Source: Streptomyces asiaticus | GTDB lineage: Bacteria; Actinomycetota; Actinomycetes; Streptomycetales; Streptomycetaceae | Assembly (NCBI RefSeq): GCF_018138715.1 | Contig: NZ_JAGSHX010000006.1 | Location: 1,426,001 to 1,490,000, forward strand | Reading direction: 5' to 3' | Length of the DNA: 64,000 bases | Shown: positions 14,665-48,514 of the stretch, one piece after another | Layout of the letters: the number at the start of each line of letters is the position of its first letter | Position numbering within the stretch: position 1 is the stretch's first letter | Made by a program: the position numbers and the translations under genes | Notes under the pieces: generated by a model | Database searches by the model: none | The model's input: the letters and a program-made list of their open reading frames with translations, nothing else | Told to the model about the DNA's origin: nothing

Positions 14665-16178
<1,514 letters not shown>

Positions 16179-24468: not shown

Positions 24469-24516
24469 GGCTTCCCCTCTGCAGTGTGCTCATCTGCCGT
24501 CTTTGGGGCTTCCGTC

Positions 24517-24543
24517 GGCCGGCACCCCGGCTGGGTGCCGGCC
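24517..24543. promoter_or_regulatory. hairpin in the gap before shc, possible attenuator or processing site
   Basis: GGCCGGCACCC (24517-24527) pairs perfectly with GGGTGCCGGCC (24533-24543) around a 5-base loop. It lies about 50 bp upstream of shc and 30 bp past the polyprenyl synthetase stop. No T-run follows, so partial termination, RNA processing or 3'-end protection are all possible. It may set different levels of the upstream and downstream enzymes. Confidence 0.55.
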
Positions 24544-24572
24544 GGCGACTGCGAACTAGCGGTCCATGGCGA

Positions 24573-30893: not shown

Positions 30894-32327
30894 CTATGGG
30901 TGATGGGGGCAGGCGGCGGGGGCGGCGGGAGCGGTCCGGCGGGACGGACGGGGGGCGGCGGTGGATCGCTCGCGCGGAGTCACCGTCACCATCACGTCCT
31001 TCAGCGGCCGCAGCGAGATCACCGGTGAGCCGTACCGCAGTTCGGTCCCCGGGATCCGGCTGATCCGGAAGCGCTGGTTCACCATGGCCACGATGATGCG
31101 CAGCTCCAGCAGCGCCATGAAGTTGCCGACGCACTGCCGGGGCCCCGAGCCGAACGGCAGGTACGCCATCCGCGGCCGCTCCTTGATGGCCTGCGGGGTG
31201 AACCGGTACGGGTCGAAGGCCAGCGGGTTCTCCCAGTGGCGCGGGTTGTGGTGGGAGACCAGCGGGGACAGCAGGATCGAGGAGCCCGGCTCGATGCCGT
31301 AGCCGCCGAGGGTGTCCGCCTCCACCGCCGCCCGGGGGAAGATCCAGATGGGCGGGTGCATCCGCAGGCTCTCGTCGACGACCATCTTGGTGTACGTCAG
31401 CGCCTCGGCGCTCTCCGCGTCCGGCAGGCCGCCGCCGAGCACCGTGGCGATCTCGGCGTCCAGCTCCTCCTGGACGCCGGGATGAGCGGCGACCGACAGC
31501 AGCGTCCAGCACAGCGAGACGGCGGTGGTCTCATGGCCGGCCAGATAGACCGTGAGCAGCTCGTCCTTGATCTGCTGATCGGTCCAGGGCTCACCGGTGG
31601 CCGGGTCGGTGGCCCGCTCCATCAGCGCGATCAGCGGCCCCTCCCCCGTCTCGGCGTAACTCCGGCGCACATCGGCCACGATGCGGTCGAAGACCCGGTG
31701 GATCCTGAGGATCTTGCGCTGACGGTCCGTCGGCACCCAGGAGGGCAGCATCTCGGTGGCGGTGCCGCGGCGGAACATCACCTCCACCACATCGTCCACG
31801 ATCGTCTTCAGCAGGGCCGAATCCGGCTTGATGTCGTAGGCGAACAGCGAGCGGGAGAGGGTGACCAGGGTCAGCCGCAGCATGTCGGTCATCAGGTCGA
31901 CCGGCTCACCGGCGGCGGCCTTGCGCTCCCAGGTGTCCAGCATCTCCTCGGTGGCCCGGATGATGTTGGGGATGATGTCGGTGATGGCGTTCTTGAGGAA
32001 GACCGGCTGTACCGCCCGCCGGTGGGCGCGCCAGAACTCGCCGTCGGTGGTGAGCAGTCCCTTGCCCATGACCACGCCGAACTGCTCGTAGAGCGGGCCG
32101 CGGACGTAGTTGCCGTTGTTCTCCACCAGCACCCGGCGTACCGCCTCGGGCTCGGTCACCTGGTGCACCAGGAACGGGCCGAGCCGCATCCGGACGATCT
32201 CGCCGTGGTCGCGCTGGAGTCCGAGCAGGAATTCGGCGGTGTTCCGCTTCCAGGGGCCCAGACTGCCCAGCAGCGGGGCGCCCTTGGGGCCGGGTGCGAT
32301 GCGCGGCGCGGAGGTCGCTGTGGTCAT
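30894..32327 (-). CDS. cytochrome P450, tailoring oxygenase of the synthase cluster
   Basis: A 477-residue P450. The I-helix oxygen-activating motif is LAGHETTAVS, the K-helix ExxR is ESLR, and the haem loop is FGSGPRQCVG. The N-terminus (GPKGAPLLGSLGPWKRNTAEFLL) and WRAHRRAVQPVF resemble the group that includes fatty-acid and terpene hydroxylases rather than typical macrolide P450s. A Pro/Ala/Arg-rich tail of about 20 residues ends the protein. Its ATG overlaps the SDR stop by 4 bp, so it is the last gene of the cluster's core operon. No ferredoxin gene is nearby. It probably hydroxylates the polyketide or lipid product. Confidence 0.93.
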   Translation of the reverse strand: MTTATSAPRIAPGPKGAPLLGSLGPWKRNTAEFLLGLQRDHGEIVRMRLGPFLVHQVTEPEAVRRVLVENNGNYVRGPLYEQFGVVMGKGLLTTDGEFWRAHRRAVQPVFLKNAITDIIPNIIRATEEMLDTWERKAAAGEPVDLMTDMLRLTLVTLSRSLFAYDIKPDSALLKTIVDDVVEVMFRRGTATEMLPSWVPTDRQRKILRIHRVFDRIVADVRRSYAETGEGPLIALMERATDPATGEPWTDQQIKDELLTVYLAGHETTAVSLCWTLLSVAAHPGVQEELDAEIATVLGGGLPDAESAEALTYTKMVVDESLRMHPPIWIFPRAAVEADTLGGYGIEPGSSILLSPLVSHHNPRHWENPLAFDPYRFTPQAIKERPRMAYLPFGSGPRQCVGNFMALLELRIIVAMVNQRFRISRIPGTELRYGSPVISLRPLKDVMVTVTPRERSTAAPRPSRRTAPAAPAACPHHP

Positions 32328-33250
32328 CGGTGGTCTCCTTGCTTTCGCGGCCGCGGCCCGCGGGGCACCGGAAACAGGCGGCGCACGAAGAGATGGTCGA
32401 AAAGGACGTCGGAGGTGAGGCGCCGCAGGGCGATCGTGCTGTGGGCGAGCAGTCCGACGGGGTAGCGGGCGCGCGGCCGGGAGCCGCGGGCGCCCTTGGC
32501 CACCACCTTCGCCACCCGGCGGGCCACATCGTCCGCCTGGATCGCGAAGGTGCCCGCCAGGGTCCGGCGGCTGCCGGTGTAGATCGCCTCGAAGTACTCG
32601 GCGCTCTCCCGGCGGAAGGTCTCGTACGTCCGGCTCACCGGCCGCAGATTGGCCACATAGGTGGCGCCGAAGCGGGTGGTGCGCACCGGGCCCGGCTCGA
32701 CGAGGACGACCCGCACCCCGAAGTCGGCCACCTCGTTCCGCAGCGAGTCGCTCAAGCCCTCCACGGCGTGCTTGGTGGCGTTGTAGAAGCCCGAGCCGGG
32801 GACGGCGTAACGGCCGAAGATGGAGGAGATGTTGACGATCGTGCCGCCGCCGTGGGCGCGCATCGCGGGCAGCACCAGCTGGCTGAGCCGGACCAGGCCG
32901 TACACATTGGTCTCGAACTGTTCGCGCACCTCGGCCAGGGAGGCTTCCTCGATACAGCCCGACATGGCGTAGCCCGCGCTGTTGACCAGCGCCCCGACCG
33001 CGCCGTGCTCCGCCTCGACCTTGGCGACGGCGGTGGCCATGGACTCCTCGTCGGTGACGTCGAGCGCCATGGTGCGGATGCCGATCGCCGCGAGCTCCGC
33101 CAGCGTCTCGGGCCGCCGCGCGGTGGCGTACACGGCGTGCCCGGCCCGGTGCAGCCGCAGCGCGCACGCGCGGCCGATTCCGGAGGAGCAGCCGGTGATG
33201 AGGACCGGGATGCCGGCCCCGGAGCCCGGGGCCGGCTCATGGCCGGTCAC
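32324..33250 (-). CDS. short-chain dehydrogenase/reductase of the synthase cluster
   Basis: A 308-residue classical SDR. The NAD(P) site is LITGCSSGIGRACAL, NSAGYAMSG follows, and the catalytic tetrad includes the Ser in NISSIFGRYAV and Tyr-x3-Lys in YNATKHAVEG. EPGPVRTTRF is the usual post-active-site loop. The C-terminal extension is basic and hydrophobic (LFDHLFVRRLFPVPRGPRPRK), suggesting membrane association. The start is GTG at 33250 inside a GTGA overlap with the SnoaL-like gene, and the stop overlaps the P450 start. It is likely to oxidise or reduce a hydroxyl/keto group of the product. Confidence 0.92.
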   Translation of the reverse strand: MTGHEPAPGSGAGIPVLITGCSSGIGRACALRLHRAGHAVYATARRPETLAELAAIGIRTMALDVTDEESMATAVAKVEAEHGAVGALVNSAGYAMSGCIEEASLAEVREQFETNVYGLVRLSQLVLPAMRAHGGGTIVNISSIFGRYAVPGSGFYNATKHAVEGLSDSLRNEVADFGVRVVLVEPGPVRTTRFGATYVANLRPVSRTYETFRRESAEYFEAIYTGSRRTLAGTFAIQADDVARRVAKVVAKGARGSRPRARYPVGLLAHSTIALRRLTSDVLFDHLFVRRLFPVPRGPRPRKQGDHR

Positions 33251-33684
33251 GCCGGGGGCGCGTCGAACGCCCCGAGCTGGGTGGCGAGGTCGTAGGAGTC
33301 CATGGAGAACCAGCTCTCCACGATCTTGCCCTCGTCGTTGAACTCGTCGATGACGATGCCGGGGATCTCCAGCTTGCGGCCCTGCGCCGGGATGAGGCCC
33401 GCGTAGTCGTCGCCGGTGTGGGTGCCGCGCGCGGTGAAGCGGCTGACGACCTTGTTCCCCTCCAGGATCCAGTCGTCCACGGTGACGTGGAGGTCGGGGA
33501 AGGAGGCGCGCTGGAGCCGCACCCACTCCTTCAGGTGCTCCACGCCCTCCTTGCCGTTGGCGGCGGTGCCGTGGCTGATGTGGTCCTCGGTGGCGCCCTC
33601 GTAGATGACGTCCAGGTTGCCCTTGTTGAGGCACTCCTCGTAGTAGCGCGCGAGGACGGCCTTGTTCTGCTCGGGAGTGGACAT
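33247..33684 (-). CDS. SnoaL-like polyketide cyclase (NTF2 fold)
   Basis: A 145-residue NTF2-like protein. It shows the SnoaL pattern: an N-terminal helix (NKAVLARYYEECLNKGNLDVI), SFPDLHVTVDDWILEGNKVVSRF, then THTGDDYAGLIPAQGRKLEIPG and FNDEGKIVESWFSMDSYDLATQLGAF. The Asp and His positions used by SnoaL-type cyclases for acid-base catalysis are retained. Such enzymes cyclise aromatic polyketides by aldol chemistry, which is unexpected beside a reducing PUFA-like synthase. It lies 11 bp after the KR-DH gene and overlaps the SDR gene by 4 bp. Confidence 0.88.
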   Translation of the reverse strand: MSTPEQNKAVLARYYEECLNKGNLDVIYEGATEDHISHGTAANGKEGVEHLKEWVRLQRASFPDLHVTVDDWILEGNKVVSRFTARGTHTGDDYAGLIPAQGRKLEIPGIVIDEFNDEGKIVESWFSMDSYDLATQLGAFDAPPA

Positions 33685-33695
33685 GAACTGCCTTT

Positions 33696-36098
33696 CTATT
33701 CCGTCGTGTTTCCCAGCGGGCCGGAGAGTCCCGAGACGGTCGCCACGGGCTCCCCGGAGTCTGCGTCGGTGATCCGCCAGACGCCGAGCGAGGGATCGCC
33801 CTCGACACGGGTGGGTCCGCGCTCGGCGGAGTGCGGTGCGATCCGGCCGAGGACCAGGGGGTCGGCGGTGACCGAGAGGCCGTCGCCCTGGGTGGTGCAC
33901 CGCCGCACCACGTTCTCCAGCGCGGCGACCGGAAGGGCCGTCCCGGGCACGTACGGCGTCGCCCACAGGTCGACCGGCAGGCAGCGCGGGACCTCGGCCA
34001 CCAGGCGGCCCGCCGGCCCCGCCGTCCATGCGGAGAGCGGCACCACGGCGCCGCGCCAGTGCAGGAAGGGCGGCCCGGAGCGGAGGGTGGTGGTCTGCTG
34101 GACGTCGGGGCGCGGCGGGGCGGGCGGCCGGGGCGCGCCGGTCTCGTGGACGATGCGCAGGCTCGCCTCCGGGCCGTCCGCGGCCCCCTCGTGGCGGTAG
34201 CGGACCTCCACGATCCAGTCGTGCCCCTCGTGGAAGCCGCGGATCTCGCGGACCAGCCGGATCGCGGGGCCGTCGAGGCGCAGCAGCGCCAGCGGCACCA
34301 CGATCTCCTCCAGCGCACCGGCCCGCAGCGCCGGGAAGTCCTCGGGGACGATCCATTCGGCGGCCCGCAGCGCGTTCTCCAGCAGCAGGGAGGGCGGCAG
34401 CGCGGGGGCGCCGTCGACGCGGAAGTCGCCCAGCGCGGGGGTGTGTTCGGGGTCGATGACGACGCGTGCCGTGAGCTGGGCGTGCGGCTGGTAGGAGGTC
34501 ACCTCGCCGAGGTGGAAGACCTTCGGATACGCGGCGGCGAAGCCGGGCAGCGCGGGCACCACCGGATAGCCGATGGCCTGCCCCGGGTCGATGGCCTTGC
34601 CCAGCGGTCCGACGAAGGTGACCTCGCCCTCGGACCCCGCCAGCAGTTCGGCCCGCCAGCGCTCCAGACCGTCCGCCACGTCGATCGCGGCCATGTAGCG
34701 CAGCGTGGCGGCGAAGTTGGCGATCAGACCGATGCGGTCCCAGGTGGGCCAGGCGAGGGTCATCACGGGGAACGCGGCCCGGCGGGCGGCCCACTGGCCG
34801 AGCCGCGCCAGACCGTCGTTGGCCGCCGCGTACTCGAGCTGGCCGACCATGCCGCCGAGCCGTCCGGTGAGGGAGCCGACGCTACAGAAGAACTTCAGGT
34901 CGCGCCCCCGCACCTCCTCGAAGACGTTGAGGAAGCCCTCGATCTTGACCTCGACGGTGCGCAGGATCTCCTCGTCGGTCTTCTTCGGCAGCCGGGCTGA
35001 GGTGTCCACCCCGGCGTTGTGCACCACCCCGGCGAGCCGGCCGCCCTCCAGCGCGTCCTCGCGCCGGATGAGCTCGCGCACCTGGGCGCGGTCGGTGAAG
35101 TCGCAGCGCGCGTACTCGATGCGCAGCCCCTCCCGCCGGGCCGAGGTCAGATGGGTGGCGAGCTCCCACAGCCGGCGGGTGCGGGCCAGCCGGCCGCGGA
35201 CCACGGCGGGCGACTCGCCCTTGGCGCGGCCCGCCCAGATCTGCCTCTCGTACGCCTTCCACCCGGCCTCGTCCACGCCGAACCAGGGCTCGTCCCCGCT
35301 GGGGAACGGCTCCCGGCCGGTCACCACGACCCGTACGCCGTGCCGGGCGGCCAGCGACCTGGCCAGCTCCCAGCCGATGCCGCGGCCGCCGCCGGAGATC
35401 AGCACGGTGTCCTCGGAGCCGAGGGTGAGGGCGAGCGCTGCCACCGGCCGGTCCTCGGGGGTGAGGGTGTACCGGCGGCCGTCGCGGTAGCCGACCTCGA
35501 TCTCACCGGTGCGGCCGAGCTCGGCGGCGACGATGCCGGGCAGTTCGGCGGAGGCGGCCAGGTCGATGTCCACGACGCGGGCGGCCACGTTGGGGAACTC
35601 CCGGTGCAGGGTCTTGGCGAGCCCCGCCCAGATGCCGCCGAGCGGCTGCTCGAGACCGTCCCGCGGATGCTGGCCCATCCCGCCGCCGAGGTAGCTGACG
35701 GCGAGATAGCACAGCCGGTCCGCGGCGGTCTCGGCCGCCCAGTCGTCGTAGACCCCGCGCAGCGCGGTCACGGTCTCGGTCAGCGCCCGCCGCCACGCCC
35801 CGGCGGAGGCGGCCCGGTCCGGGTCGTACGCCCGGCCCACGGTGAGGTCGACGACGGCGTCCACGGGGCCGGGGCCGTCCGGCTCCCGGCGCACCAGCGC
35901 GCCGTGCCCCTTCAGTTCCCGCTCCACCCCGGCGGCGATGTCCTCCTCGCCGCCGATCAGCAGCACCCGCAGCCCGGCCAGCCGGGGGTGCGGCCCGGCG
36001 GGGCGGGGCAGCTCGGTGAGCCGCCACACCATCCGGGTCACCGGCTGGACCGGCGCGTCCTCCGCGGTCACGGTCATGTCCGGCTGAGTCGCGGTCAT
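33696..36098 (-). CDS. ketoreductase-dehydratase-fold protein, third synthase subunit
   Basis: An 800-residue two-domain protein. Residues about 40-225 form the structural half of a KR. Residues about 228-500 are a catalytic KR with ISGGGRGIGWELA, HNAGVD, Ser near 406-409, Tyr 423 and Asn 427 (LEYAAANDG). Residues about 540-790 look like a double-hotdog dehydratase, but the HxVxG motif reads FRVDG, with Phe 559 in place of the catalytic His, so this DH is probably structural or non-catalytic. No KS, AT or ACP is present; it must work on chains carried by the AT-ACP protein. The ATG overlaps the stop of the large synthase gene by 4 bp. Confidence 0.85.
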   Translation of the reverse strand: MTATQPDMTVTAEDAPVQPVTRMVWRLTELPRPAGPHPRLAGLRVLLIGGEEDIAAGVERELKGHGALVRREPDGPGPVDAVVDLTVGRAYDPDRAASAGAWRRALTETVTALRGVYDDWAAETAADRLCYLAVSYLGGGMGQHPRDGLEQPLGGIWAGLAKTLHREFPNVAARVVDIDLAASAELPGIVAAELGRTGEIEVGYRDGRRYTLTPEDRPVAALALTLGSEDTVLISGGGRGIGWELARSLAARHGVRVVVTGREPFPSGDEPWFGVDEAGWKAYERQIWAGRAKGESPAVVRGRLARTRRLWELATHLTSARREGLRIEYARCDFTDRAQVRELIRREDALEGGRLAGVVHNAGVDTSARLPKKTDEEILRTVEVKIEGFLNVFEEVRGRDLKFFCSVGSLTGRLGGMVGQLEYAAANDGLARLGQWAARRAAFPVMTLAWPTWDRIGLIANFAATLRYMAAIDVADGLERWRAELLAGSEGEVTFVGPLGKAIDPGQAIGYPVVPALPGFAAAYPKVFHLGEVTSYQPHAQLTARVVIDPEHTPALGDFRVDGAPALPPSLLLENALRAAEWIVPEDFPALRAGALEEIVVPLALLRLDGPAIRLVREIRGFHEGHDWIVEVRYRHEGAADGPEASLRIVHETGAPRPPAPPRPDVQQTTTLRSGPPFLHWRGAVVPLSAWTAGPAGRLVAEVPRCLPVDLWATPYVPGTALPVAALENVVRRCTTQGDGLSVTADPLVLGRIAPHSAERGPTRVEGDPSLGVWRITDADSGEPVATVSGLSGPLGNTTE

Positions 36099-39000
36099 GT
36101 CCGGTCCTCCCCCGCCGGTGCCTGCTCCAGGGGGACGGCCTCGCCGGTCTCTGCGTCGACATAGCCGATGAGGGTGGCCCGCATGTCCTTCATCTGGAGC
36201 AGCATCCGGCCGTCGGGCCGCACCGCCACGAAGCGGTTGCTGATGGTGTCGGCCGTCAGATCGAAGCCGGGCGGGGTGACGAAGAGATCGATGTCCTCCC
36301 CGGACGCGGCCAGGTCGTGGTCGCTGATCTCCTCGTACAGATCGATCCGGCGGATCGACAGCGGCGCGGCCACCGGCACCAGATGCCCGTCGACCAGGTC
36401 CAGCACCCCCACCCGGGCCAGCCCGTCGAGCAGGATGCTCGGCACGGTGAAGCGGGACCACACCGGATCGCCGGCCGGGACGTCGGGCGCGTAGCGGGCG
36501 CGCTTGCCCCGGGGGTGGATCCGGGTGTCGGTGGTGGAGACGAAGGGGCCGGTCAGCCGCACCGGGGAGCCTGGCTGGTGGTACGGGTCGGGCACCGGGG
36601 TCTCCTCCCCCGTCGGCCACTCCTCCCAGCGCGGCGCGGTGGGCGCCTCGGTGTCGAGCAGCACCCGGGCCAGGAAGTGCACCCGGTCCTCGACCAGGAC
36701 CACCCCGCTGGGCGCGACCACGTCCTCGGTGATCCGCACCTGGACGACGGTCACCTCACCGGGGCTGTCCACCAGTTCGGCGCGGATCCGCCTGGGACCG
36801 GCCGGGATGTCGCGGTAGACCCGCAGGAAGTGCTCGAAGCGCAGATCCTCGAAGGCGATCACCCGCTTGCCGGGGACCAGGGCCCGGGCGGCCTCGGCGG
36901 CCAGTTCGGTGACGAAGGTGCCGGGCAGGGTGGCCTCGCCGCGCACCGTGTGGTGTTCGAGATAGCCGTCGGTGTCCAGGTCGAAGGGGCACTCGTAGAC
37001 CACGGACCGCTCGTCGGAGGCCACCAGCCGGCGCAGGAAGAACCCGGGCCGCCGGTCCAGATAGCCGGGGTAGAAGCGCTCCACGGTGGCGCGCTCGGCG
37101 TCGCCGAGGTGGACGACGGAGGGGCGCCGCACGGGGGCGTGGAGCTCCTGGACGAAGTGGTGGATGCCCTCGGCGATGGCCATGTTGCTGTACGAGCCCG
37201 CGCGCTCGTAGTACGCCTTGGTCAGCTCGTTGGCGCCCATGCCGACGCCTTCCCACAGCGTCCAGCCGATGGTGAACTCGTCCGTCCGCGAATCGGTCGC
37301 GCGGGTGTGGGTCGCGGCGGCGGCCAGGAAGTCGTTGGCCGCGGCGTAGTCGGCCTCCCCCAGCTGCCCGAAGTAGCCCAGCAGCGAGCCGAAGTTGCAC
37401 CACAGCCGGGGCGGCGCGGTGCGCAGGGCGCGCTTGAGGTGGAGGTAGGAGTCCAGCTTCAGATCGCGGATGGAGGCGAACTCGGCGAAGCTCTTGTCCT
37501 TGATCAGCCCGGAGCGCTGTAGCCCGGCGGCGTTGACCAGCAGGTCGATCCGCCCCCGCTCCTCCAGGACCCGGCCGATCGCCCGGTCCACCGCCGCGCC
37601 GTCGCGCATGTCGCAGGCGAGGTAGGTGACCCGTCCCGCGCCGCTGTGGGCGGCCATCTCGTCCAGGTTGCGCTTCGCCCAGCGGGCGTTGACCATGCGG
37701 TCGAAGGCGCGGTTGATGTCGGCCACGGTGCGGCCGTCGCGCCGGGCGATCTCCGTCTTGATGTAACCGGCGCGCCGGGCGGCGAACTCCTCGTCGGTGC
37801 CCTGGTACGTCTCCGGCGGATAGTCGTCCAGGGAGTTGCTGCCCAGGACGTAGATCCGGGGCCGGAAGTGCTCGGCCACCGCCTTGACCACCTCGGCGGT
37901 GATGCCCCGGGCTCCCCCGGCGACCACCACGACCGAGTCCGGGCCGAGGACGGCCGGTGCCCCCGCCGCCAGGTCGTTCGGCTCGTCGGAGAGCAGATAC
38001 GCCTTCCGCACGCCGTCGAGGTCGAACACCACGGGGAAGACCCGCTCGGCCGCGCTCTCCTCCTCGGCGCGGGCCATCGCCTCGGTGAGGTCGGTGGCCG
38101 AGGTGCACAGCGTGAAGACGAGGCAGGCGTCCCGCTCCAGGGCCGCGGTCTTCCACAGCCCGGTGAAGAGCCCGGTGTACGGATGCGGGGTGCCGTCCGG
38201 CGCGGCGCCCAGCAGCAGCGCCACGGCCGAGGAGCCGGGGTCGCCCAGGTCGTCGTAGAGGTGCTGGAGGGTCAGATAGGCGGCGTCGTGCAGGGCGGTG
38301 AGGGCGGGCGCGGGGCCGTCCGTGGCCGCCCGGCCGAGGTCACCCACCACCCTGAGGTGGGTGACCCCGGGGCCCGCGCCCGCCAGGGCTCGGCGGACCG
38401 ACTCCTCGGTGACCTCGGCCAGGTGGTGCCAGCCGGGGCGCGGGGCCGCGAGCGGCGCCGTGGACAGGACGGTGAGGTCCGCGTCCGGCGGCGCGGCGGC
38501 GGCGAGCGGCCCGGGGGCGTCGGTGAGCACCACCGCCCCGGCGGGCAGGAACGGGACGCGCTCGCGTACGGGGCGCGCGGGCAGCTCGGTCAGGACGGGC
38601 ACCTGGCGGCGGACCCGTACCGGGGTGCCGTCCGCGAGCCGTCCGCCGGTGGTGAACGCGGCGGGCAGCGCGGCCGGGACCGCCTCCCGGCCCTCGGACT
38701 CCCGGCCCTCGGACTCCCGGCCCTCGGACTCCCGGCTGTCGGACTCCCGGCCCTCGGACTCGGAGCCGGCGGACTCCGGGCCGGCGGACTCCGGGCCGTC
38801 ACCCGGGATGGTCAGCCGGAGCCGGGCCCCGGCGGCGCCCTCGCTCTCGTCGGTGGCGATCTCCACGGTCCCCGAGGGCCGGTGCAGCGCCTTGAGGACG
38901 GCGAGGCCGCCGGCCGCGCCCAGGTAGCGGGCGTGCTCGGGCGCGGGCGTACCGCACAGCAGGACCTCCTCCGGGGCGGCCTCCCCACGCCCCGCCTCGA

Positions 39001-42000: not shown

Positions 42001-42193
42001 CCGAGGCCCGGGCGAGCTCGACCCGGGCGCCCTCTGCCACCAGTTCGTCCCTGGTGCGCTTGGCCTGGTCGTGCGAGTGGAAGTAGTTGAGGACGACATC
42101 GGCGCCGCGGGCCGCGAGGGTCCGCGCGATCGCCTTGCCCACGCCCTTGGAGCCCCCGGTGACCAGGGCCACCTTCCCCGTGAGGTCTTTCAT
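36095..42193 (-). CDS. PUFA-synthase-like multidomain synthase: ER(FabL)-KS-KS0-KR-DH
   Basis: A 2032-residue iterative synthase. Residues 1-255 are a FabL-like enoyl reductase (GGSKGVGKA; NYSACAPAK with Tyr 154-x6-Lys 161). Residues 256-327 are a linker of VVTREP/VVAPEP repeats. Residues 328-780 form an active KS: Cys 531 (DTACSSS), His 665 (HATGTP), His 701 (NKSLIGH). Residues 808-1110 are a second KS-like domain with Phe 982 where Cys is expected (DSGFAS) and no HATGT block, resembling a chain-length factor. After an ESEGR repeat linker (1130-1170), a PfaA-type KR follows (AGGARGITAE; Ser 1603, Tyr 1616, Asn 1620), then a DH-fold domain with HTVRGEATLP (His 1748). It contains no AT and no ACP; those are on the gene 48 bp upstream. 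Confidence 0.9.
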   Translation of the reverse strand: MKDLTGKVALVTGGSKGVGKAIARTLAARGADVVLNYFHSHDQAKRTRDELVAEGARVELARASVARQEQVDRMFAEIEERHGRLDILVNSAANGALLPLAEVTDEDIAKAIDTNYKGGLRCARGAVPLMARGGGGSIVTVSALGGSQMVMANYSACAPAKAAAEAATRYLAVEYAPLGIRVNTASAAMLESEVADKFPRAREMQEVIARATPFGRLGTPEEFADVVAFLASDASRWITGQVVLADGGLTLGAALMSPPAAAPVREEAAPAAPEPEPVVAREAVVTREAVVTREPVVAPEPVVTREPVLAPEPDPVVAPEPVAPDVPDDAIAVVGMGLAVAGANSPEEFWKLRTTGDELFVKIPRDRWRHENFHAVDTAAEDKAYADRCVFITDFQAAPGSVDSMAEGADDHELTTMWLRHSLVQALDGVRHQDSDRCSFVVGYTPDGSQHLEEAGVLDSVTRMTHDILGDLPLDDGERTALGGDIEAALNRRYWRAGQDRSRFLPHRVGELAMRGLLPPSTELHMVDTACSSSLYAIDIAAKGLLMGKQDIAVCGGAFALAPRGTVLFSKLQGLSKRGEVHALDEDADGVIFADGAALVVLKRLSRARADGDEVLGVLRAFGSSSDGKGKAIYAPNAAGQSLAVRRALEAGEVEGSAVSWVNAHATGTPAGDLAEFTTLREYYGTAGPAAVTSNKSLIGHTGWAAGVVSLIENLLGLAEHTIPGQFRFSKPREDFRLAETGLEITPEHKDWPERSDSPRLAAVSGFGFGGTNAHLIVSEHRARPAAGAATATDRAPATVTKVPDTGSRVAIVGWSAHLPGLAGREEVTRWLGGGPRPRDSFGDEYPAPPFSKVRLPPKTIRALDRCQLMIVECAHQLRDQMPDFWQERALKTGVFVGHMGPTRAAMLYANRCYLDDIAEALGELPSDALPGVLERLGDRVRGMIPASNEDSFPGQMPNIISARVANYFDLNGPNMTMDSGFASAVSSITSAGRYLRTGELDFALAGGINGNSLPEYRTLIGELLPPEARELAEGAFLFALTTEERARAAGLEVLAYVDEPLGAVEAGRGEAAPEEVLLCGTPAPEHARYLGAAGGLAVLKALHRPSGTVEIATDESEGAAGARLRLTIPGDGPESAGPESAGSESEGRESDSRESEGRESEGRESEGREAVPAALPAAFTTGGRLADGTPVRVRRQVPVLTELPARPVRERVPFLPAGAVVLTDAPGPLAAAAPPDADLTVLSTAPLAAPRPGWHHLAEVTEESVRRALAGAGPGVTHLRVVGDLGRAATDGPAPALTALHDAAYLTLQHLYDDLGDPGSSAVALLLGAAPDGTPHPYTGLFTGLWKTAALERDACLVFTLCTSATDLTEAMARAEEESAAERVFPVVFDLDGVRKAYLLSDEPNDLAAGAPAVLGPDSVVVVAGGARGITAEVVKAVAEHFRPRIYVLGSNSLDDYPPETYQGTDEEFAARRAGYIKTEIARRDGRTVADINRAFDRMVNARWAKRNLDEMAAHSGAGRVTYLACDMRDGAAVDRAIGRVLEERGRIDLLVNAAGLQRSGLIKDKSFAEFASIRDLKLDSYLHLKRALRTAPPRLWCNFGSLLGYFGQLGEADYAAANDFLAAAATHTRATDSRTDEFTIGWTLWEGVGMGANELTKAYYERAGSYSNMAIAEGIHHFVQELHAPVRRPSVVHLGDAERATVERFYPGYLDRRPGFFLRRLVASDERSVVYECPFDLDTDGYLEHHTVRGEATLPGTFVTELAAEAARALVPGKRVIAFEDLRFEHFLRVYRDIPAGPRRIRAELVDSPGEVTVVQVRITEDVVAPSGVVLVEDRVHFLARVLLDTEAPTAPRWEEWPTGEETPVPDPYHQPGSPVRLTGPFVSTTDTRIHPRGKRARYAPDVPAGDPVWSRFTVPSILLDGLARVGVLDLVDGHLVPVAAPLSIRRIDLYEEISDHDLAASGEDIDLFVTPPGFDLTADTISNRFVAVRPDGRMLLQMKDMRATLIGYVDAETGEAVPLEQAPAGEDRT
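38684..38803. repeat. 15-bp minisatellite coding the linker before the KR
   Basis: The unit CTCCCGGCCCTCGGA is present in exact or near-exact form about eight times, the last three units diverged. On the coding strand it encodes ESEGR/ESAGP repeats, an acidic flexible linker between the KS0 domain and the KR region. The unit length is a multiple of three, so copy-number changes keep the frame. Confidence 0.9.
41222..41377. repeat. 18-bp imperfect repeats coding the ER-KS linker
   Basis: Six-codon units encode VVTREA, VVTREP, VVAPEP and VLAPEP in about eight imperfect copies (residues 273-324). They form a Pro/Glu/Val-rich hinge between the FabL-like enoyl reductase and the KS. The DNA repeats are clearest around 41280-41360 (TCACGACGGCCTCGCGCG). 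Confidence 0.85.
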
Positions 42194-42241
42194 CGGAACG
42201 ACTGACTCCTTCTGCGACTGCGGCGACGAGGGGTGGGCGCT

Positions 42242-43813
42242 TCAGCCCGTGGCGGAGGCCGGTGTGTGGGCCCCGTGGTCGTTGAGCTGCTGGAGCACAA
42301 AGTCGGTGATCTTGCCCATGGTGTTGTAGGTGGCCAGCCGGAAGCCGGACTCGCGCGGCGGCAGCCCGTAGCGACTGGAGACCCTGGACAGAAGTTCGAC
42401 CTGCTTGACGGAGTCGACGCCCAGCTCGGCCTCAAGCTGCACCTCGTCCTCGAAGACGTCCTCGGGGTATTCGAGCGCCTCGGCGTAGAGGGTCCGCAGC
42501 TCCCCGAAGAGCTGGTCGCGGCCGTACCCCTCGGGCCGCGAACCGGACGCGGGGGCCGCCGGGGCCGCCGGGGTCTCCGGCGCGGGAACGGGAGCGGGAG
42601 CGGGAGCAGCCTCGGCGGCGGGCTCAGGCTCGACGGCCGCCGCGGGCTCCGGCCCGGGCTCGGCACCGCCACCCTCGGTCGACTTGCGGAAGGCGTCCAG
42701 TTCGGTGCGGACCAGCTCGAGCACCATATGGCCGCGTTCGCTCCAGTACGCCGCGAAGACGTCCGCGGGCACCGAGGGGGCCAGCAGCTCGGCGAGCCCG
42801 CCGCGCTCCGGCGCCGCCAGACCGGCCTCGCGCAGCGCGTCGAGGGTGCCGTCGAGCGCGAGCCGCCCGCCGGTCACGGCCAGCGTGGGCAGCGACCGCA
42901 CCGCGGAGCCGTCGGTCACCTTGGCGACCAGCTTGGAGAGCGCGGCGCGCCCGCCCGCCTCCACGAACACCTCGGCACCGGTCTCCCGCAGGTGCCGTAC
43001 GGCCGCGGCGAACCGCACCGGCCGGGTGAAGTGCTCGGCCAGCAGCTCGGCGAGGTCGTCGCCCGGCTCGTAGTAGCGCTGGAGGATCGGCGAGTAGACC
43101 GGGCGGTTCAGCGGACGCTGGTCCAGCTTCCTCACGTACGCGGCGAACTCGGGGGCGGCGGGGGCGAGCGCCGGGGTGTGGAAGGGGAAGGGGGTGTCGA
43201 TCTCGATGGCGCCCACGTCCAGCTGCCCGGCGATCGCCACCACGCGGTCCAGGATTCCGGCGGGGCCGCTGACCACGGTCTGCTCGTCGTGGTTCTCGGT
43301 GGCGACGGCCAGCAGCGGCTCGTCCACCAGGTCCAGCAGCTTGCGGGTGCGCTCGGCGCTCGCGGCCAGGGCCACCATGCGGCCGTCGACCCCGCCCTGC
43401 CGCTCGATCACGGCGACGCGCTGGGCGACGATCCGGACCCCGTCCTCGACCGAGAAGGCCCCGGCCGCCACCAGGGCGGTGATCTCGCCGAGGCTGTGCC
43501 CGGCCAGCACGTCCGGGGCGACGCCCTGGGCGGCGAGGATCTCGTAGGCGGCCAGACCTGCGCCGTAGATGGCGACCTGGGAGGCCCAGGGGTCGTTGTC
43601 GAGCAGATCGCGCAGATCCGCCTTGCGCTCGCCGAAGAGCACCTCGGAGATGCGGCTGCCGTAGAGCTCCTCGGTCACGGTGTCGAGCCGCTCGAAGACC
43701 CGGCCGATCTGGGGGTGGCGCTCCTTGGCGCGGCGGAGCGCCTCGCCGTCGAAGCCGCCCTGTCCGGGGAAGAGGAACGCCGTCGTGACGCCGGGGGACG
43801 GATTGCTGGACAT
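42242..43813 (-). CDS. acyltransferase-ACP protein, first synthase subunit
   Basis: A 523-residue protein. Residues 10-330 are an FabD-like acyltransferase with FLFPGQGG, GHSLGE (Ser 107) and FPFHTPAL (His 212); the PFHT form fits malonyl rather than methylmalonyl. Residues about 370-425 are an Ala/Pro/Glu hinge. Residues 430-510 are one acyl-carrier domain with LGVDSVKQVELL (phosphopantetheine Ser 468), the DSxK form characteristic of PUFA-synthase carriers. Only one ACP is present, whereas PfaA proteins carry several in tandem. No phosphopantetheinyl transferase is in the window. The ATG has GGAGG upstream. The gene is the first of the core operon, 48 bp before the large synthase. Confidence 0.92.
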   Translation of the reverse strand: MSSNPSPGVTTAFLFPGQGGFDGEALRRAKERHPQIGRVFERLDTVTEELYGSRISEVLFGERKADLRDLLDNDPWASQVAIYGAGLAAYEILAAQGVAPDVLAGHSLGEITALVAAGAFSVEDGVRIVAQRVAVIERQGGVDGRMVALAASAERTRKLLDLVDEPLLAVATENHDEQTVVSGPAGILDRVVAIAGQLDVGAIEIDTPFPFHTPALAPAAPEFAAYVRKLDQRPLNRPVYSPILQRYYEPGDDLAELLAEHFTRPVRFAAAVRHLRETGAEVFVEAGGRAALSKLVAKVTDGSAVRSLPTLAVTGGRLALDGTLDALREAGLAAPERGGLAELLAPSVPADVFAAYWSERGHMVLELVRTELDAFRKSTEGGGAEPGPEPAAAVEPEPAAEAAPAPAPVPAPETPAAPAAPASGSRPEGYGRDQLFGELRTLYAEALEYPEDVFEDEVQLEAELGVDSVKQVELLSRVSSRYGLPPRESGFRLATYNTMGKITDFVLQQLNDHGAHTPASATG

Positions 43814-44182
43814 GCCGATGCCTCCATGGCTGTGGTGGTGACGGTGGGTGGGGTGCGTCACCCGCGCGGGTGACGCGGCGCTGTGGGCGGCCGAAGGCCG
43901 TTGTGAGGTGCGGGCGTGCGGGGTGGGCGTGACGCGAGGGGGCCCGGCTACGGGGCGTCCGGCGGGCTGCTCCCCAACCCGCCCCTTCCCGTTACAGGGG
44001 CTTCGCCCCTGGGCCCGGACGCCCTTCGGGCGTGTCCTCAATCTCCCCCAGCTACCGCTGGGAGGTGCCCCCTGGACGGGCTGAAATCAGCCCCTCCGGC
44101 GCTTGAGGAGCGGGGTCTGGGGCGGAGCCCCAGTTGAGGGAAGGGGCGCCGCCGCAGGCGTACGCGATCCGTCGGACACCCC
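43814..44182. other. 369-bp gap with a composite repeat, promoter region of the synthase operon
   Basis: This separates the AT-ACP gene from the FAD-enzyme gene. From about 43957 it carries fragments related to the 184-bp repeat: GGCGGGCTGCTCCCC followed by CGCCCCTTCCCG near 43965, and at 44130-44182 the inverted counterpart of the repeat's GTGTCCGACGGATC end. Between them are short hairpins (CAGGGGCTTCGCCCCTG; GTCCAGGGG-type). It probably terminates the FAD gene transcript and contains the promoter of the synthase operon. No gene is seen. Confidence 0.6.
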
Positions 44183-45556
44183 CTAAGCCACGCGGGCGAC
44201 CGGGGAGTCGAGCAGGAAGGTGCCCATGCTCCCGAGGTTGGCGGCGATCAGTCGGTCGGCGAGCCGGGTCGCCGGGGGCAGATGCCGGGGGGCGCCGCGG
44301 ACGAGCCAGCGCACCATCCGGATCTTCCAGCCCGGTTCGGAGCCCGGCGGGATGTGGTCGAAGAGGGCGTGGATATTGGCCGGGGAGTAGAACTCGGCGG
44401 GCGGGACGATGGTGGCGAACATCCCGACCATGCCGCTGCCGTGGTGCGGGCTGCGGGCCATCGCCCGGATGAACTCCAGCTCCTCGCGGTTGTAGTCGGC
44501 GATCGCGGCGTGGTCGCGGGTGTACTGGAAGTGGCCGCTCACCAGGGCGTCACGGCGCCGGGCGTAGCCGGCGAGGGCGGGGGCGAGGTCGCGGTCCCCG
44601 GCCAGGGCCGGCTCCACGGCCTCCACCAGCAGTTCGGCGCCGCGCAGCGAGTCGGTGATACCGGCGGCGGTGATGGGGTCGCGGGTGTAGCCCGCGTCGC
44701 CGACCAGGGCCCAGCCGGGGCCGTGACAGTGGCGCAGGAAGTTGGGGACCGCGCCGGTCATCCACTTGTCGACGCGCCGGGTGTCCCGCAGCCGCGCCGC
44801 GAACTCCGGGTCGACCTCCTCGAAGGCGGAGACGACCGTGGCGTCGCGCTCCCCGTCGGCGGACGCCTTGAAGTCCTTGACCGGCAGGGCGAGTCCGACG
44901 ATGGTCAGGCCGTCGTGGGTGGGCCAGGTGAAGGCGTGCTGATGGCGGTGGCGGTAGGTGCGCACCTTGCCGTCGTGCGGCAGATCGGCCCAGTACGACC
45001 AGTGGCTCTTGTTGAGCACCGGATGGGAGTCGTACTTCTCGGCCCCCACCAGCCGGGCGACGGTGGAGTTCGAGCCGTCGGCGCCCACGACCAGCCGGGC
45101 GTGCTCGACGATGGGGGTGCGGTCCCCGGTCTCGGCCCGGACGCCGATGACGGTGCCCTGGGCGTCCGTCAGCAGCTCCCGCACGGCGACCTGTTCCCGC
45201 AGTTCGGCCCCGGCCTTGACGGCGGCCTCCAGCAGGATCTCGTCCAGCTTGCGGCGCTCCGGGGAGTACGCCTCGGCCACGCCCTCCACGGCGGGCAGCT
45301 TGGCCATCAGCTGGACGGGACCGCTCTGCAGACCGTAGGAGTGAATGGGCGGGCAGCCGGTGGCCGCCACCTCGTCCAGCAGCCCCCAGCGCTTCAGCCG
45401 GAGAATTCCCGGAGGGTGGACCAGATTGGTGGCGGCCCCCTTACCGCCGGGGAATTTCGCCCGGTCGAGGAGGAGGACCCGGTACCCCGCTCTCGCCAGG
45501 AGCATCGCGGTCGATGACCCGCTGATGCGTGCTCCTACCACAATGACGTCGTACAT
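44183..45556 (-). CDS. FAD-dependent oxygenase/reductase (geranylgeranyl-reductase-like fold)
   Basis: A 457-residue flavoprotein. The FAD fold starts IVVGARISGSSTAMLLARAG, with LDRAKFPGGKGAATNLVHPPG next; the middle LVVGADGSNSTVARLVGA (DG motif) and GWALVGDAGYTRDPITAAGITDSLRGA (GD motif) complete the group A monooxygenase/GGR signature. The C-terminal part is Pro-rich and hydrophobic. I chose ATG 45556, which has GGGGGA upstream; ATG at 45568 and 45574 are alternatives. It lies between the exporter and synthase genes, all on the minus strand, and is likely to hydroxylate or epoxidise the product. A reductase acting on double bonds is the alternative. Confidence 0.88.
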   Translation of the reverse strand: MYDVIVVGARISGSSTAMLLARAGYRVLLLDRAKFPGGKGAATNLVHPPGILRLKRWGLLDEVAATGCPPIHSYGLQSGPVQLMAKLPAVEGVAEAYSPERRKLDEILLEAAVKAGAELREQVAVRELLTDAQGTVIGVRAETGDRTPIVEHARLVVGADGSNSTVARLVGAEKYDSHPVLNKSHWSYWADLPHDGKVRTYRHRHQHAFTWPTHDGLTIVGLALPVKDFKASADGERDATVVSAFEEVDPEFAARLRDTRRVDKWMTGAVPNFLRHCHGPGWALVGDAGYTRDPITAAGITDSLRGAELLVEAVEPALAGDRDLAPALAGYARRRDALVSGHFQYTRDHAAIADYNREELEFIRAMARSPHHGSGMVGMFATIVPPAEFYSPANIHALFDHIPPGSEPGWKIRMVRWLVRGAPRHLPPATRLADRLIAANLGSMGTFLLDSPVARVA

Positions 45557-45637
45557 AGCGTCCCCCATACCCAACGGTCACCCGGGATCCGGGGGCCGGT
45601 GGATCTTCTTGTTCGCTCTGACTTCGCTCTCTCGAAT

Positions 45638-47101
45638 TTAGTTGCGCGATCGACTCGGCAGGTTTCCCTGATATGAATCCTCGACGGCCCCCGAAGAAAT
45701 CACCTTCGTTTCGGCCGGCGCGGTGCGGCCGCGCGGTGCCATGAGAATGGCCAGACAGCCGGCGGCGGCGATTCCGGCGCCGATCCAGGCGGCGGGCCGC
45801 AGCCCGTCCACGAATTCCTGCGGCGAGCCGTATCCGCCCAGCGTGGTGAATACGGAGGTGAGCACCGCGACGCCGAGTGCGCCGCCGAGCTCCCGGAAGG
45901 TGTTGTTGGCGCCCGAGGCGATTCCCTGGTCGCGGGGCGCGACGACGTTCATCGCCATTTCCGCGACGGGCGAGAAGAACAGCCCCAGGCCGATTCCGCC
46001 GAGCACCAGACCGGGCACCTGGTCGGCGTAGGCGGTGTCCGCGCTCACCACGGACGCCAGCCAGCCGAGACCCGCGGCTTCGAACAGCAGGCCCGCGGCG
46101 ACCACCAGACGGTTGCCGAGCCGGGCGGTCAGCAGCGCCGCCAGCGGGGCGACGACGACCGGCATCGCCGTCCACGGCAGCATCTTCACGCCCGCCTCCA
46201 GCGGCGAGAAGCCCTGGATGTTCTGCATGAACTGGGTGAGCAGGAAGACCAGTCCGAACATGGCCGCGAACATCAGCAGGCTGGCCGCGTTGACCGCGCT
46301 GAACGCCCGGTTGCGGAACAGCCGCATCGGCAGCATCGGTTCGGCCGTGCGCAGCTCCCAGCCGACGAAGAGCGCGAGCACCACCAGGCCGCCGGCCAGG
46401 AAGCCGAGCACCCGGCCGCTGGTCCAGCCGTGTTCGGTGGTGGACACCAGCGCGTAGACCACGCCGAACACCCCGAGGCTGACCAGGACCGTGCCCACCG
46501 GGTCCAGCGAGGTGTCCGGGCGGGTGGACTCGACCAGCTTCCACAGGCCGAGCACCAGCACCACCACGCCGATCGGCACATTGACCCAGAAGATCCACTC
46601 CCAGGAGATCTTCTCCACCACGGCCCCGCCGATCAGCGGGCCGAGCGCGACCGCGAGCCCGCTGAGGGCCCCCCAGACGCCCAGCGCGACACCGCGCCTG
46701 CGCTCGGGGACGGCCACCGTCAGCAGGGTCAGCGTCAGCGGCATCACCACGGCCGCCCCGAGCCCCTGTACGGCCCGGGCGGCGATCAGGGCGTCCGCGC
46801 TGTCGGACAGCGCCGCGGCGGCGGAGGCCCCGGTGAAGACGACGAGGCCGGCCAGGAACACCCGGCGGCGGCCGAACCGGTCACCGGCGGCCGCGCCGGC
46901 CATCAGGAAGACCGAGAAGGTGAGGGTGTAGCCGTTCACCGTCCACTCCAGGTCCTGGAGGCTGGTGCCCAGGTCCTTCTGGATGGCGGGCAGCGCGGTG
47001 ATGACGACGAGGTTGTCCAAGGCGGCCATGAAGACGGTGAGTCCGGACACCACCAGCGTCCACACGGGGTTCATTCCGCTCGGGCCGGAACGGTCAGTCA
47101 T
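45638..47101 (-). CDS. DHA2-type MFS exporter of the synthase cluster
   Basis: A 487-residue transporter with about 14 membrane segments. Motif A-like GAAAGDRFGRRRVFLAGLVVFTGAS, the RAVQGLGAAVVMPLTLTLL helix (motif C region) and WIFWVNVPIGVVVLVLGLW are hallmarks of the DHA2/EmrB-QacA branch. The last loop RGRTAPAETKV is cytoplasmic. GGAAAGG precedes the ATG. It is 92 bp downstream of the LuxR gene and 81 bp upstream of the FAD-enzyme gene, so it probably exports the cluster product or gives self-resistance. Confidence 0.93.
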   Translation of the reverse strand: MTDRSGPSGMNPVWTLVVSGLTVFMAALDNLVVITALPAIQKDLGTSLQDLEWTVNGYTLTFSVFLMAGAAAGDRFGRRRVFLAGLVVFTGASAAAALSDSADALIAARAVQGLGAAVVMPLTLTLLTVAVPERRRGVALGVWGALSGLAVALGPLIGGAVVEKISWEWIFWVNVPIGVVVLVLGLWKLVESTRPDTSLDPVGTVLVSLGVFGVVYALVSTTEHGWTSGRVLGFLAGGLVVLALFVGWELRTAEPMLPMRLFRNRAFSAVNAASLLMFAAMFGLVFLLTQFMQNIQGFSPLEAGVKMLPWTAMPVVVAPLAALLTARLGNRLVVAAGLLFEAAGLGWLASVVSADTAYADQVPGLVLGGIGLGLFFSPVAEMAMNVVAPRDQGIASGANNTFRELGGALGVAVLTSVFTTLGGYGSPQEFVDGLRPAAWIGAGIAAAGCLAILMAPRGRTAPAETKVISSGAVEDSYQGNLPSRSRN

Positions 47102-47193
47102 GAATACCTTTCCTATGACGGCGCGATTGCTGTGCGACAGGTTGGTTCACGTCGTTATCCGGCCGACGGATAAACGGGCAGACGGCGGCAACG

Positions 47194-47496
47194 CTAACCG
47201 GCCACGCCTCTCCCCGGAACTGTACTTTGGTACAGGTGGCGGTAGCTGAGCGCGACCAGACCGGCCTGTAGTCGCGATTCGACCTGCAGTTTCGCGAGTA
47301 TTGACGCCACATGCGCCTTCACCGTGCGCTCGGTCACTTGCAGCCGCAGCGCGATACGGCGGTTGGACCAGCCCGCGCCGAGCAGTGCAAACGTCTGGCC
47401 CTCCCTGGCTGATAACAGCGGCACACGTTCCAGCTCCCGCGCCCAGTTGGGCACGGGAATATCGGGCACGACGGTGAGACCGCCCCTGTCGGACAC
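47194..47496 (-). CDS. single-domain LuxR-type regulator
   Basis: A 100-residue protein consisting almost entirely of a LuxR/GerE helix-turn-helix: VPLLSAREGQTFALLGAGWSNRRIALRLQVTERTVKAHVASILAKLQVESRLQAGL. There is no receiver, PAS or ATPase domain, so it cannot be a standard response regulator; it may be constitutively active or work with a partner. The start is GTG at 47496 with GGGGGA upstream. It is the promoter-proximal gene of the LuxR-MFS-FAD group and the best candidate for a cluster-situated activator. Confidence 0.88.
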   Translation of the reverse strand: MSDRGGLTVVPDIPVPNWARELERVPLLSAREGQTFALLGAGWSNRRIALRLQVTERTVKAHVASILAKLQVESRLQAGLVALSYRHLYQSTVPGRGVAG

Positions 47497-47686: not shown

Positions 47687-48514
47687 TTACTTCGTTCTCG
47701 AATCGTCGCCATCCGGACCGGCGGGACGGCCCCGCCCCAGGTCGGCCAGCGCGGACGCCGTCCGCTCGACCGCCTCGATGACGGTCACCGGACACCGCGT
47801 CATGACCTGCTTGGGCTTCATCACCAGCACCGAGCCCATCACCAGCCCGTCCCAGGTGACCGGCGCCGCGCACTCGTTCCACCCCGCCGCGCACTCCTCG
47901 TGCCCCAGGGCGTACCCGCGCGCCCTGATCCGGGCCAGCGAGGCCAGCAGCCGCACATCGTCCTGGTAGGCGCCGGGACCGGCCTCGGTGGGCACCGGCC
48001 GGTCCAGCACCTCCGACTGGATGGTCTCCGGCAGATACGCCAGGATGGCCCGCCCCGCGGCCCCCACCCGCAGCGAGTGCTCGACGGTCTGCACCGCGCG
48101 CGGCGTCATCCCGAGCTCCGTCAGATCGGAGTCGCCGACGGCCATGTCGACGCACTGCCGGTGCGCGCCGCCGAAGGGCGCCAGCAGATAGAGGAAGGCC
48201 AGCCCCCCGGTGGCCCGGCGCAGCGCCTCGAGGAGGGCGTGGGCGGCCTCCGGCGCGGGCGAGTGGGCCAGGGCCTTGAGACCGAGCTGCGGGGCCGCCG
48301 AGCCCAGCCGGTAGAGACCCCGGCCCTCGCGGACGAAGATGCCCTGGTGCACCCCGGACTGAAGGATCCGGTAGACGGTCGAGTCGTCCAGATCCGCCGC
48401 TCTGGCCAGCGCCCCGGGCCCATGGGCCCGCCCCTCGAGCTGGGTGAAGGCCCGCTGCACGCGGAACACCCTCTCGGCATGACCGCTTCCGCCCACGGCA
48501 CCGCTACTGGCCAC
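47687..48514 (-). CDS. IclR-family regulator
   Basis: A regulator of about 275 residues. The N-terminal winged HTH reads RVFRVQRAFTQLEGRAHGPGALARAADLDDSTVYRILQSG, then FVREGRGLYRLG. The effector domain has the IclR pattern (ALRRATGGLAFLYLL, VGAAGRAILAYLP, RARGYALGHEECAAGWNECAAPV). The GTG at 48514 is chosen for GGGGGG upstream; an ATG at 48595 gives 27 more residues without a ribosome-binding site. Its ligand is unknown. It is flanked by strong terminators on both sides, so it is a monocistron. Confidence 0.88.
   Translation of the reverse strand: MASSGAVGGSGHAERVFRVQRAFTQLEGRAHGPGALARAADLDDSTVYRILQSGVHQGIFVREGRGLYRLGSAAPQLGLKALAHSPAPEAAHALLEALRRATGGLAFLYLLAPFGGAHRQCVDMAVGDSDLTELGMTPRAVQTVEHSLRVGAAGRAILAYLPETIQSEVLDRPVPTEAGPGAYQDDVRLLASLARIRARGYALGHEECAAGWNECAAPVTWDGLVMGSVLVMKPKQVMTRCPVTVIEAVERTASALADLGRGRPAGPDGDDSRTK

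Follow-up and report, generated by a model that had tools for sequence, protein, structure and literature searches.

Several described systems offer points of comparison for the gene cluster reported here. The heterocyst glycolipid (Hgl) synthases are iterative synthases of the lipid type, which antiSMASH labels hglE-KS. In the accessible part of Shulse and Allen (2011, PMC3098273), the Type L Pfa (polyunsaturated fatty acid, PUFA) synthase of S. coelicolor is laid out as ketosynthase (KS)-chain-length factor (CLF)-dehydratase (DH2)-acyltransferase (AT) and is accompanied by PfaD. IdmH, an indanomycin cyclase, is proposed in the accessible part of its report to act as a Diels-Alderase on a polyene, and is described there as lacking the SnoaL acid/base pair (PMC6830212). 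The cluster in question lies in a 64,000-nucleotide stretch of Streptomyces asiaticus DNA (hereafter the window; assembly GCF_018138715.1), positions 1426001-1490000 of contig C6 (NZ_JAGSHX010000006.1) in a genome of 11.9 Mb and 6 contigs.

The window holds a minus-strand run of nine genes, from 47496 down to 30894, centred on a three-subunit reducing synthase. The cluster is confirmed as real and conserved, and there is reasonable confidence that it is intact and directs a secreted, oxidised and reduced polyketide lipid by the order of steps proposed below; the exported product would most likely be a polyketide lipid that is oxidised and partly unsaturated, and perhaps cyclised. An initial annotation had described a biosynthetic cluster in which three genes encode a reducing synthase and others encode tailoring enzymes and an exporter, a description that the domains support. 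Every gene it claimed is present on the minus strand and placed about right (Pfam, NCBIfam), and the nine genes of its 30894-47496 span are real, but it overlooked an IclR gene at 47687-48514. The features are as follows, loci compared in the analysis being given L numbers.

47687..48514, minus strand: IclR-family regulator, 275 aa; 54-72% identity in L016, L067, L021, L022, L018 and L055, in either orientation
47194..47496, minus strand: small LuxR-type helix-turn-helix regulator, 100 aa, GerE domain alone (Pfam GerE 7e-14)
45638..47101, minus strand: major facilitator superfamily (MFS) exporter of DHA2/EmrB type, 487 aa (MFS_1 5.9e-62; TIGR00711 above cut-off)
44183..45556, minus strand: FAD-dependent monooxygenase/oxidoreductase, 457 aa (FAD_binding_3)
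42242..43813, minus strand: AT-ACP protein, 523 aa, with one AT and one acyl carrier protein (ACP) domain (Acyl_transf_1, PP-binding)
36095..42193, minus strand: KS protein, 2032 aa, comprising FabL-type enoyl reductase (ER), KS, CLF-like KS0, ketoreductase (KR) and DH (Pfam/NCBIfam domains)
41441..42178, minus strand: N-terminal ER domain within the KS protein (residues 6-251), assigned to the FabL-type short-chain dehydrogenases/reductases (SDR) with Y-x6-K
39005..39796, minus strand: KS0 or CLF-like domain of the KS protein, about residues 800-1063, KS-homologous
33696..36098, minus strand: KR-DH protein, 800 aa, with a KR domain and an apparently inactive DH lacking its His
33247..33684, minus strand: SnoaL/NTF2-fold protein, IdmH-like, 145 aa (PF07366; sequence, Foldseek, AlphaFold2)
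32324..33250, minus strand: classical SDR dehydrogenase, YxxxK, 308 aa (adh_short)
30894..32327, minus strand: cytochrome P450, 477 aa (p450 4.9e-77)

The KS protein was aligned in 121 rows, made up of the query and 120 database matches, those listed out of 5513. The Cys-His-His residues of its KS (C531, H665, H701) are unchanged in 121/121 rows, as are those of its KR (S1603, Y1616, N1620) and DH (H1748, D1923). The neighbouring KS0 domain is KS-like by sequence; its Cys position is occupied by Leu (57 rows), Phe (49), Tyr (7), Val (4), Pro (3) or His (1) and by Cys in none of the 121, and the KS His motif was not found in residues 800-1110, the KS0 region. Enoyl reductases of the FabI and FabL kinds carry a Y-x6-K pattern and FabG carries Y-x3-K; the usual ER of polyketide synthases (PKSs) also differs from a FabL-type ER domain. 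At the N-terminus of the KS protein, Y154-x6-K161 is present in all 118 of the 121 rows that are ungapped there. The best single-domain NCBIfam match of this domain is FabL (223.3 bits, below the cut-off of 328, for one domain of a fused protein), followed by 209.5 bits for a model named glucose 1-dehydrogenase and 194 for FabG, and its best single-domain solved match is B. subtilis FabL (3oic, 2e-48). The earlier call of an ER was therefore right and can be refined: by its Y-x6-K pattern and its best matches to FabL, the N-terminal domain is assigned as a FabL-type SDR enoyl reductase, not PfaD.

The AT residues S107 and H212 are found in 28/28 rows, and the ACP serine S468 in 27 of the 28, the other being gapped. 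The Pfam PP-binding profile matches the AT-ACP protein alone, and when six cluster proteins were scanned with a loose ACP motif, this site came up together with one hit in the KR-DH protein, taken as chance, leaving the single ACP already claimed. The KR of the KR-DH protein retains Y423 and N427 in 27/27 rows and S409 in 26/27. At its DH His site it has Phe, and the 23 rows at or above 36% identity show Phe (18), Val (3) or Leu (2); the remaining four have His in three (26-28% identity, possibly matches to another subunit) and a gap in one. This DH, without its catalytic His, is apparently inactive, and the predicted total for the synthase is one working DH, two KRs and one ACP. KS, AT, ACP, KR, DH and ER are all present with catalytic residues, as in an iterative reducing type I PKS in the broad sense, so the complete reducing set of the initial annotation stands in that respect, with the reservation that its second DH lacks the His. 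Repeated use of one module is inferred from the single KS/ACP set. The cluster has no thioesterase to account for chain release.

From LuxR to P450 the junctions measure 92, 81, 369, 48, -4, 11, -4 and -4 bp. Coupling by 4 bp had been claimed through most of the core, and such overlaps do occur at 3/8 junctions (KS/KR-DH, SnoaL/SDR and SDR/P450), with KR-DH and SnoaL 11 bp apart, but 369 bp separate the FAD and AT-ACP genes; tight coupling is limited to the KS-to-P450 half of the cluster.

The same genes occur in different surroundings in S. apocyni (L018), S. altiplanensis (L021) and Streptomyces PB5 (L022), where MFS, FAD, AT-ACP, KS, KR-DH and SnoaL are retained at 62-83% identity; L018 and L022 also retain SDR and P450, and the L021 locus stops short of both. 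The gene set is likewise found in SAJ15 and further relatives, and the KS protein reaches a best-segment identity of 89-94% in S. violaceusniger, S. iranensis, S. rugosispiralis and others, which points to a place in the S. violaceusniger group. Ratios of non-synonymous to synonymous substitution (dN/dS), calculated for nine genes (without IclR) against six relatives, are 0.05-0.44 in orthologous comparisons, with no value for SDR versus L067 or L016 or for KS versus L018; values of 0.51-0.65 came from non-orthologous matches (MFS versus L016 and L067, LuxR versus L022). The cluster is not a chance arrangement, because its gene set recurs in diverged Streptomyces and its dN/dS values in orthologous comparisons are 0.05-0.44.

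At its edges, the MFS is 77-83% identical in L018, L021 and L022, and no orthologue is present in L016, L067, L054 or L055. LuxR is 62-76% identical in L016, L067, L021 and L018; the gene was not found in L022, L054 or L055. The IclR gene is conserved in six diverged loci, four of which (L018, L021, L022 and L055) show no match to the TetR gene, and no IclR orthologue was found in L054. On the strength of its retention in those six loci, the IclR gene at 47687-48514 is counted as part of the cluster. The TetR gene at 29422-30162 is retained in the violaceusniger group, L016 and L067 only, and its link to the cluster is therefore tentative. The ABC-exporter and squalene/hopene genes that flank the cluster in the window have no match at the L018, L021 and L022 loci.

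Among the tailoring enzymes, the P450 keeps its heme ligand C399 in 24/24 rows. In L053, L056, L057, L058, L060 and L061 its gene is flanked by those for KS and KR-DH; P450 and KR-DH form a single protein in Paraburkholderia (L040), and in P0121 (Actinacidiphila) the P450 forms the C-terminus of the KS protein. As it is fused to the KR-DH or KS protein in these relatives, the P450 probably works together with the synthase. An AT is likewise fused onto the KS protein in P0067 (S. bicolor). Such fusions suggest a partnership of the parts, not the timing of the oxidation. The solved chains nearest the FAD protein, 8zop and 3e1t, are named halogenase; it has the stretch F-T-W-P-T-H, with W211 and P212 in 18/18 rows, and the halogenase motif W-x-W-x-I-P was not found in this region. 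The SDR dehydrogenase has Y156 and K160 in 17/17 rows.

The domains, catalytic residues, conserved gene set and fusions are read directly from the sequences, and on them the following step order and product class can be proposed. The AT would load an extender, probably malonyl-CoA, onto the single ACP, and the KS with its cysteine-less KS0, acting as chain-length factor, would elongate the chain iteratively. The beta-carbon would be processed by KR, DH and the fused FabL-type enoyl reductase; given the second KR with its His-less DH fold, hydroxyl groups may persist at some positions, or these may undergo different processing, and mixed reduction would yield a partly unsaturated chain. The P450, together with the synthase, would oxidise the carrier-bound or just-released chain, and the FAD oxygenase and SDR would oxidise it further. 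The SnoaL-fold protein would probably close a ring, not by the aldol reaction of SnoaL; the closest precedent is an IdmH-like cycloaddition of a polyene. The MFS protein would then export the product, with the LuxR- and IclR-type proteins predicted to control the genes.

The cyclisation step deserves closer scrutiny. The SnoaL-like protein adopts the SnoaL/NTF2 fold in its AlphaFold2 model (pLDDT 96.1), and IdmH (6hnn) is its top solved match both by sequence and by Foldseek, at 30-32% identity. The positions of SnoaL Gln105, His107 and His119 correspond to G109, V111 and S124, each in 37/37 rows, and that of Asp121 to F126 (Phe in 33 and Leu in 4 of 37 rows), in a mapping made by sequence through the IdmH alignment, not by superposition, with Asn33 outside it. 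The aromatic-type SnoaL cyclase of the initial annotation is not supported, four catalytic residues being missing in 37/37 rows. What had seemed an odd pairing, a reducing synthase with a SnoaL fold, has a precedent, since IdmH, the nearest solved relative by sequence, acts on a polyene.

The best surviving alternative, though an improbable one, is that a FAD epoxidase and an epoxide hydrolase of SnoaL/limonene epoxide hydrolase (LEH) fold turn a polyene into cyclic ethers, as in the monensin or lasalocid pathways. It stays alive because some relatives carry a second NTF2-fold-like protein beside the cluster (L018:18997-19476, L022:19090-19569 and L057:2602-3066, located by eye and motif), an arrangement that resembles the MonBI/MonBII pair. 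Against it, Lsd19 and MonB were absent among the 32 solved matches of the SnoaL-like protein at E up to 1, the second NTF2 gene had no match in the S. asiaticus genome (in a search without a positive control), and the FAD protein lies nearest to halogenase-named chains, with squalene monooxygenase reaching merely 6.7e-4.

It is also doubtful that the cluster encodes a true Pfa-type PUFA/secondary-lipid synthase making a membrane polyunsaturated fatty acid. The combination of a KS with a cysteine-less KS/CLF partner and a reducing kit speaks for such a synthase, and among the NCBIfam matches of the KS protein PfaA ranks second. That match, however, scores 307.9 bits, far below the cut-off of 1010.1, and the same genome holds a Pfa cluster of its own on contig C1 (L075, G000:C1:1211001-1231000), which encodes PfaA (1667.6 bits) and PfaD, both above their cut-offs, along with another large KS protein. 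This PfaD (TIGR02814) is the only match in the genome, and the cluster described here sits on C6; the PfaD profile also matches the B. subtilis control, so that PfaD alone does not prove a Pfa cluster. Tandem ACPs are absent, Pfam and the motif scan of six cluster proteins giving one ACP, and the presence of dedicated oxygenases and an exporter is a further point against a Pfa synthase.

The KS phylogeny bears on the same question. In an unrooted 41-row tree the synthase family (17 rows) forms its own clade (100/100), with 1.13 changes per column along its stem, outside the PfaA-type (12 rows, 97/98), the PfaC-type (3 rows, 100/99) and the ordinary type I (9 rows, 100/100) clades. The 12 PfaA-type rows, all KS-AT, comprise the S. 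asiaticus PfaA, three other genomes above the PfaA cut-off, five rows that fall short of it (four from other genomes, one from S. asiaticus) and three from plasmids, the plasmid loci having been chosen by similarity to the S. asiaticus PfaA and only that of S. globosus being annotated with PfaD; the PfaC-type rows are three KSs with no AT after them. L024, L025, L026, L027, L029, L030, L031 and L033 are ordinary type I PKSs by NCBIfam. Without a root, the PfaC-type KSs come out as partners of the family at 89/75, a support that falls short of firm, and a grouping with the PfaA-type KSs is not rejected (approximately unbiased (AU) test, p 0.066). Rooting on two FabF-like rows, both long branches, left the branching order unresolved, this tree being the 41-row set minus five rows, plus those two, with L069, L070 and L071 not included. 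The KS may thus have a distant kinship to PfaC. The term PUFA-like, used at the outset, is apt insofar as a KS with a cysteine-less partner resembles PfaC, and misleading in that PfaD is missing, the ACP is single and the KS belongs to neither Pfa clade. The S. globosus plasmid locus (L087, NZ_CP030864.1, on a plasmid typed mobilizable) itself carries a Pfa-type cluster whose annotated genes include those for PfaD, an ACP, a thioesterase and an acyl-CoA carboxylase.

Equally unlikely is that an acyltransferase passes the chain to an alcohol to give a wax-ester-like lipid, a proposal that stays alive because some relatives have wax ester synthase/diacylglycerol acyltransferases (WS/DGAT) within the cluster (L018, L021 and L022) and carboxyltransferases (L021 and L022); WS/DGAT had no match in the S. 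asiaticus genome (again without a positive control) and none in L016, the other violaceusniger-group loci lying outside this search. Last and least probable of all is an aromatic-type aldol cyclisation of a partly reduced polyketone by the SnoaL-like protein, given G109, V111, S124 and F126 at the catalytic positions and a synthase with a full reducing set.

The family extends beyond this genome. A KS0 probe had matches of 73 bits or above, a threshold that we placed where the listed scores show a gap, in 39/392 sampled Streptomyces, S. asiaticus included; in the class, 7/394 sampled genomes gave matches at E up to 1e-25. A SnoaL orthologue at 72% identity or above occurs in 12/392 Streptomyces genomes, the next best match being at 38%. 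All 12 hold a KS0 at 61% or above, in 11 of them on the same contig at a distance of about 7 kb or less, and in the twelfth, an assembly of 1380 contigs, on separate contigs. In genome G302 the KS0 is 65% identical, but the best SnoaL match is at 38% and on another contig. The SnoaL-bearing subtype is thus rarer than the KS0 family, and KS0 does not imply SnoaL. S. asiaticus itself has a second synthase copy, 35% identical, at C6:8002868 (L036/L037, G000:C6:7988001-8023000), with ER-KS-KS0-KR-DH and AT-ACP proteins, a P450 and a KshA-like Rieske oxygenase. Other genomes that carry the first cluster also have KS0 copies like this one (34-36%). Stand-alone KS-KS0 proteins from S. noursei (P0161) and S. 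griseus (P0146) fall inside the family KS clade (100/100).

Two further loci were observed alongside these. In Nocardia sp. SYP-A9097 (L020) a distant cluster at 44% identity is followed by an AfsA-like protein, named by eye, and a FAD amine oxidase-like open reading frame (ORF), and a split variant (L064, G204:C111) pairs a KS-KS0 ORF of 1056 aa with one of 1234 aa and also encodes a pair of FabH-like proteins and one resembling 3-hydroxyacyl-CoA dehydrogenase, all named by eye.

More tentatively, the family may be a separate iterative-synthase lineage, perhaps sister to PfaC, in which a FabL-type SDR replaces PfaD and the P450 serves as a built-in oxidation station, one machine giving oxygenated, cyclised polyketide lipids. 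In this class a KS/CLF core is combined with an SDR enoyl reductase fused to it and with a P450 that is physically coupled. Relatives of its KS0 were detected in roughly one in ten of the Streptomyces sampled, and one lies on a proteobacterial plasmid; the open-access papers searched gave no product for any of these relatives, and one product structure would assign a function to the whole class. At about 17.6 kb, the cluster is compact enough for cloning and expression in a laboratory Streptomyces to be realistic.

The literature search gave no identity. No characterised member or product was found for the cluster in the open-access literature, subscription journals and MIBiG lying outside the search, which agrees with the initial failure to match a known product. 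Judged on the accessible parts of the reports concerned, several candidates were rejected: a bisenarsan-type cluster, as the bisenarsan PKS makes trimethylnonenoic acid (PMC12159101); the S. coelicolor 'EPA' Type L cluster (PMC3098273; SCO0126/0127 label, PMC5932044), as its domain plan differs; the S. olivoreticuli hglE-KS regions, which show weak similarity to known clusters and no tie to the family (PMC12472026); S. melanosporofaciens region 2.8, whose gene list is different (PMC13047742); and PMC13291983 as a source of identity. The accessible parts of PMC8880029 and PMC8510958 give no product for the cluster, and hglE-KS regions are reported in Streptomyces, with no product tied to the family in the accessible text (PMC12472026, PMC13047742, PMC8510958).

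Elsewhere in the window, 22522-29060 holds a hopanoid-type run of two squalene/phytoene synthases, an HpnE-like amine oxidase, a polyprenyl synthase and a squalene-hopene cyclase, beyond which lie genes for a radical SAM protein (20770), a 1-deoxy-D-xylulose-5-phosphate (DXP) synthase (17602) and a class III aminotransferase (16196). A serpin-family protein (14985-16178; PF00079, 1.9e-22) is also encoded in this Streptomyces genome. At 48675-50445 is a two-gene ABC exporter, a nucleotide-binding domain and an ABC-2 membrane protein, which looks like an O-antigen or teichoic-acid exporter.

Set against known systems, the synthase class may presumably fall under the genome-mining label hglE-KS, although the KS trees hold no verified Hgl sequence and their Nostocaceae row (L029) is an ordinary type I PKS. 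With the Pfa synthases it shares a multi-protein build, a KS with a cysteine-less partner, and KR and DH domains, and its KS is possibly the sister of the PfaC type; relative to Type L Pfa, as laid out in the accessible description, the window cluster has a fused FabL-type ER, its ACP on the AT subunit and no PfaD. The KS-KS0 didomain proteins of about 700-820 aa, ten of which aligned at 39-51% identity, differ in standing alone without a fused ER, KR or DH. The member on the Paraburkholderia ginsengisoli plasmid NZ_CP066077 (L040) likewise has AT-ACP, ER-KS-KS0-KR-DH (50% identity), P450 and KR-DH, but differs in its P450-KR-DH fusion, its own phosphopantetheinyl transferase (PPTase), Lol-type export genes and the lack of a SnoaL match. 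This plasmid member (NZ_CP066077.1) is flanked by IS6 and IS110 transposases, and its plasmid location amid transposases, together with its own PPTase, suggests horizontal spread of the family. IdmH is by sequence the closest solved relative of the SnoaL-fold protein, and both appear to lack the SnoaL acid/base pair, whereas Thr131 and Asn117 of IdmH are replaced by F126 and V111. FabL (3oic), finally, shares with the ER its SDR fold and Y-x6-K pattern, the difference being that here the reductase is one domain of a PKS subunit.

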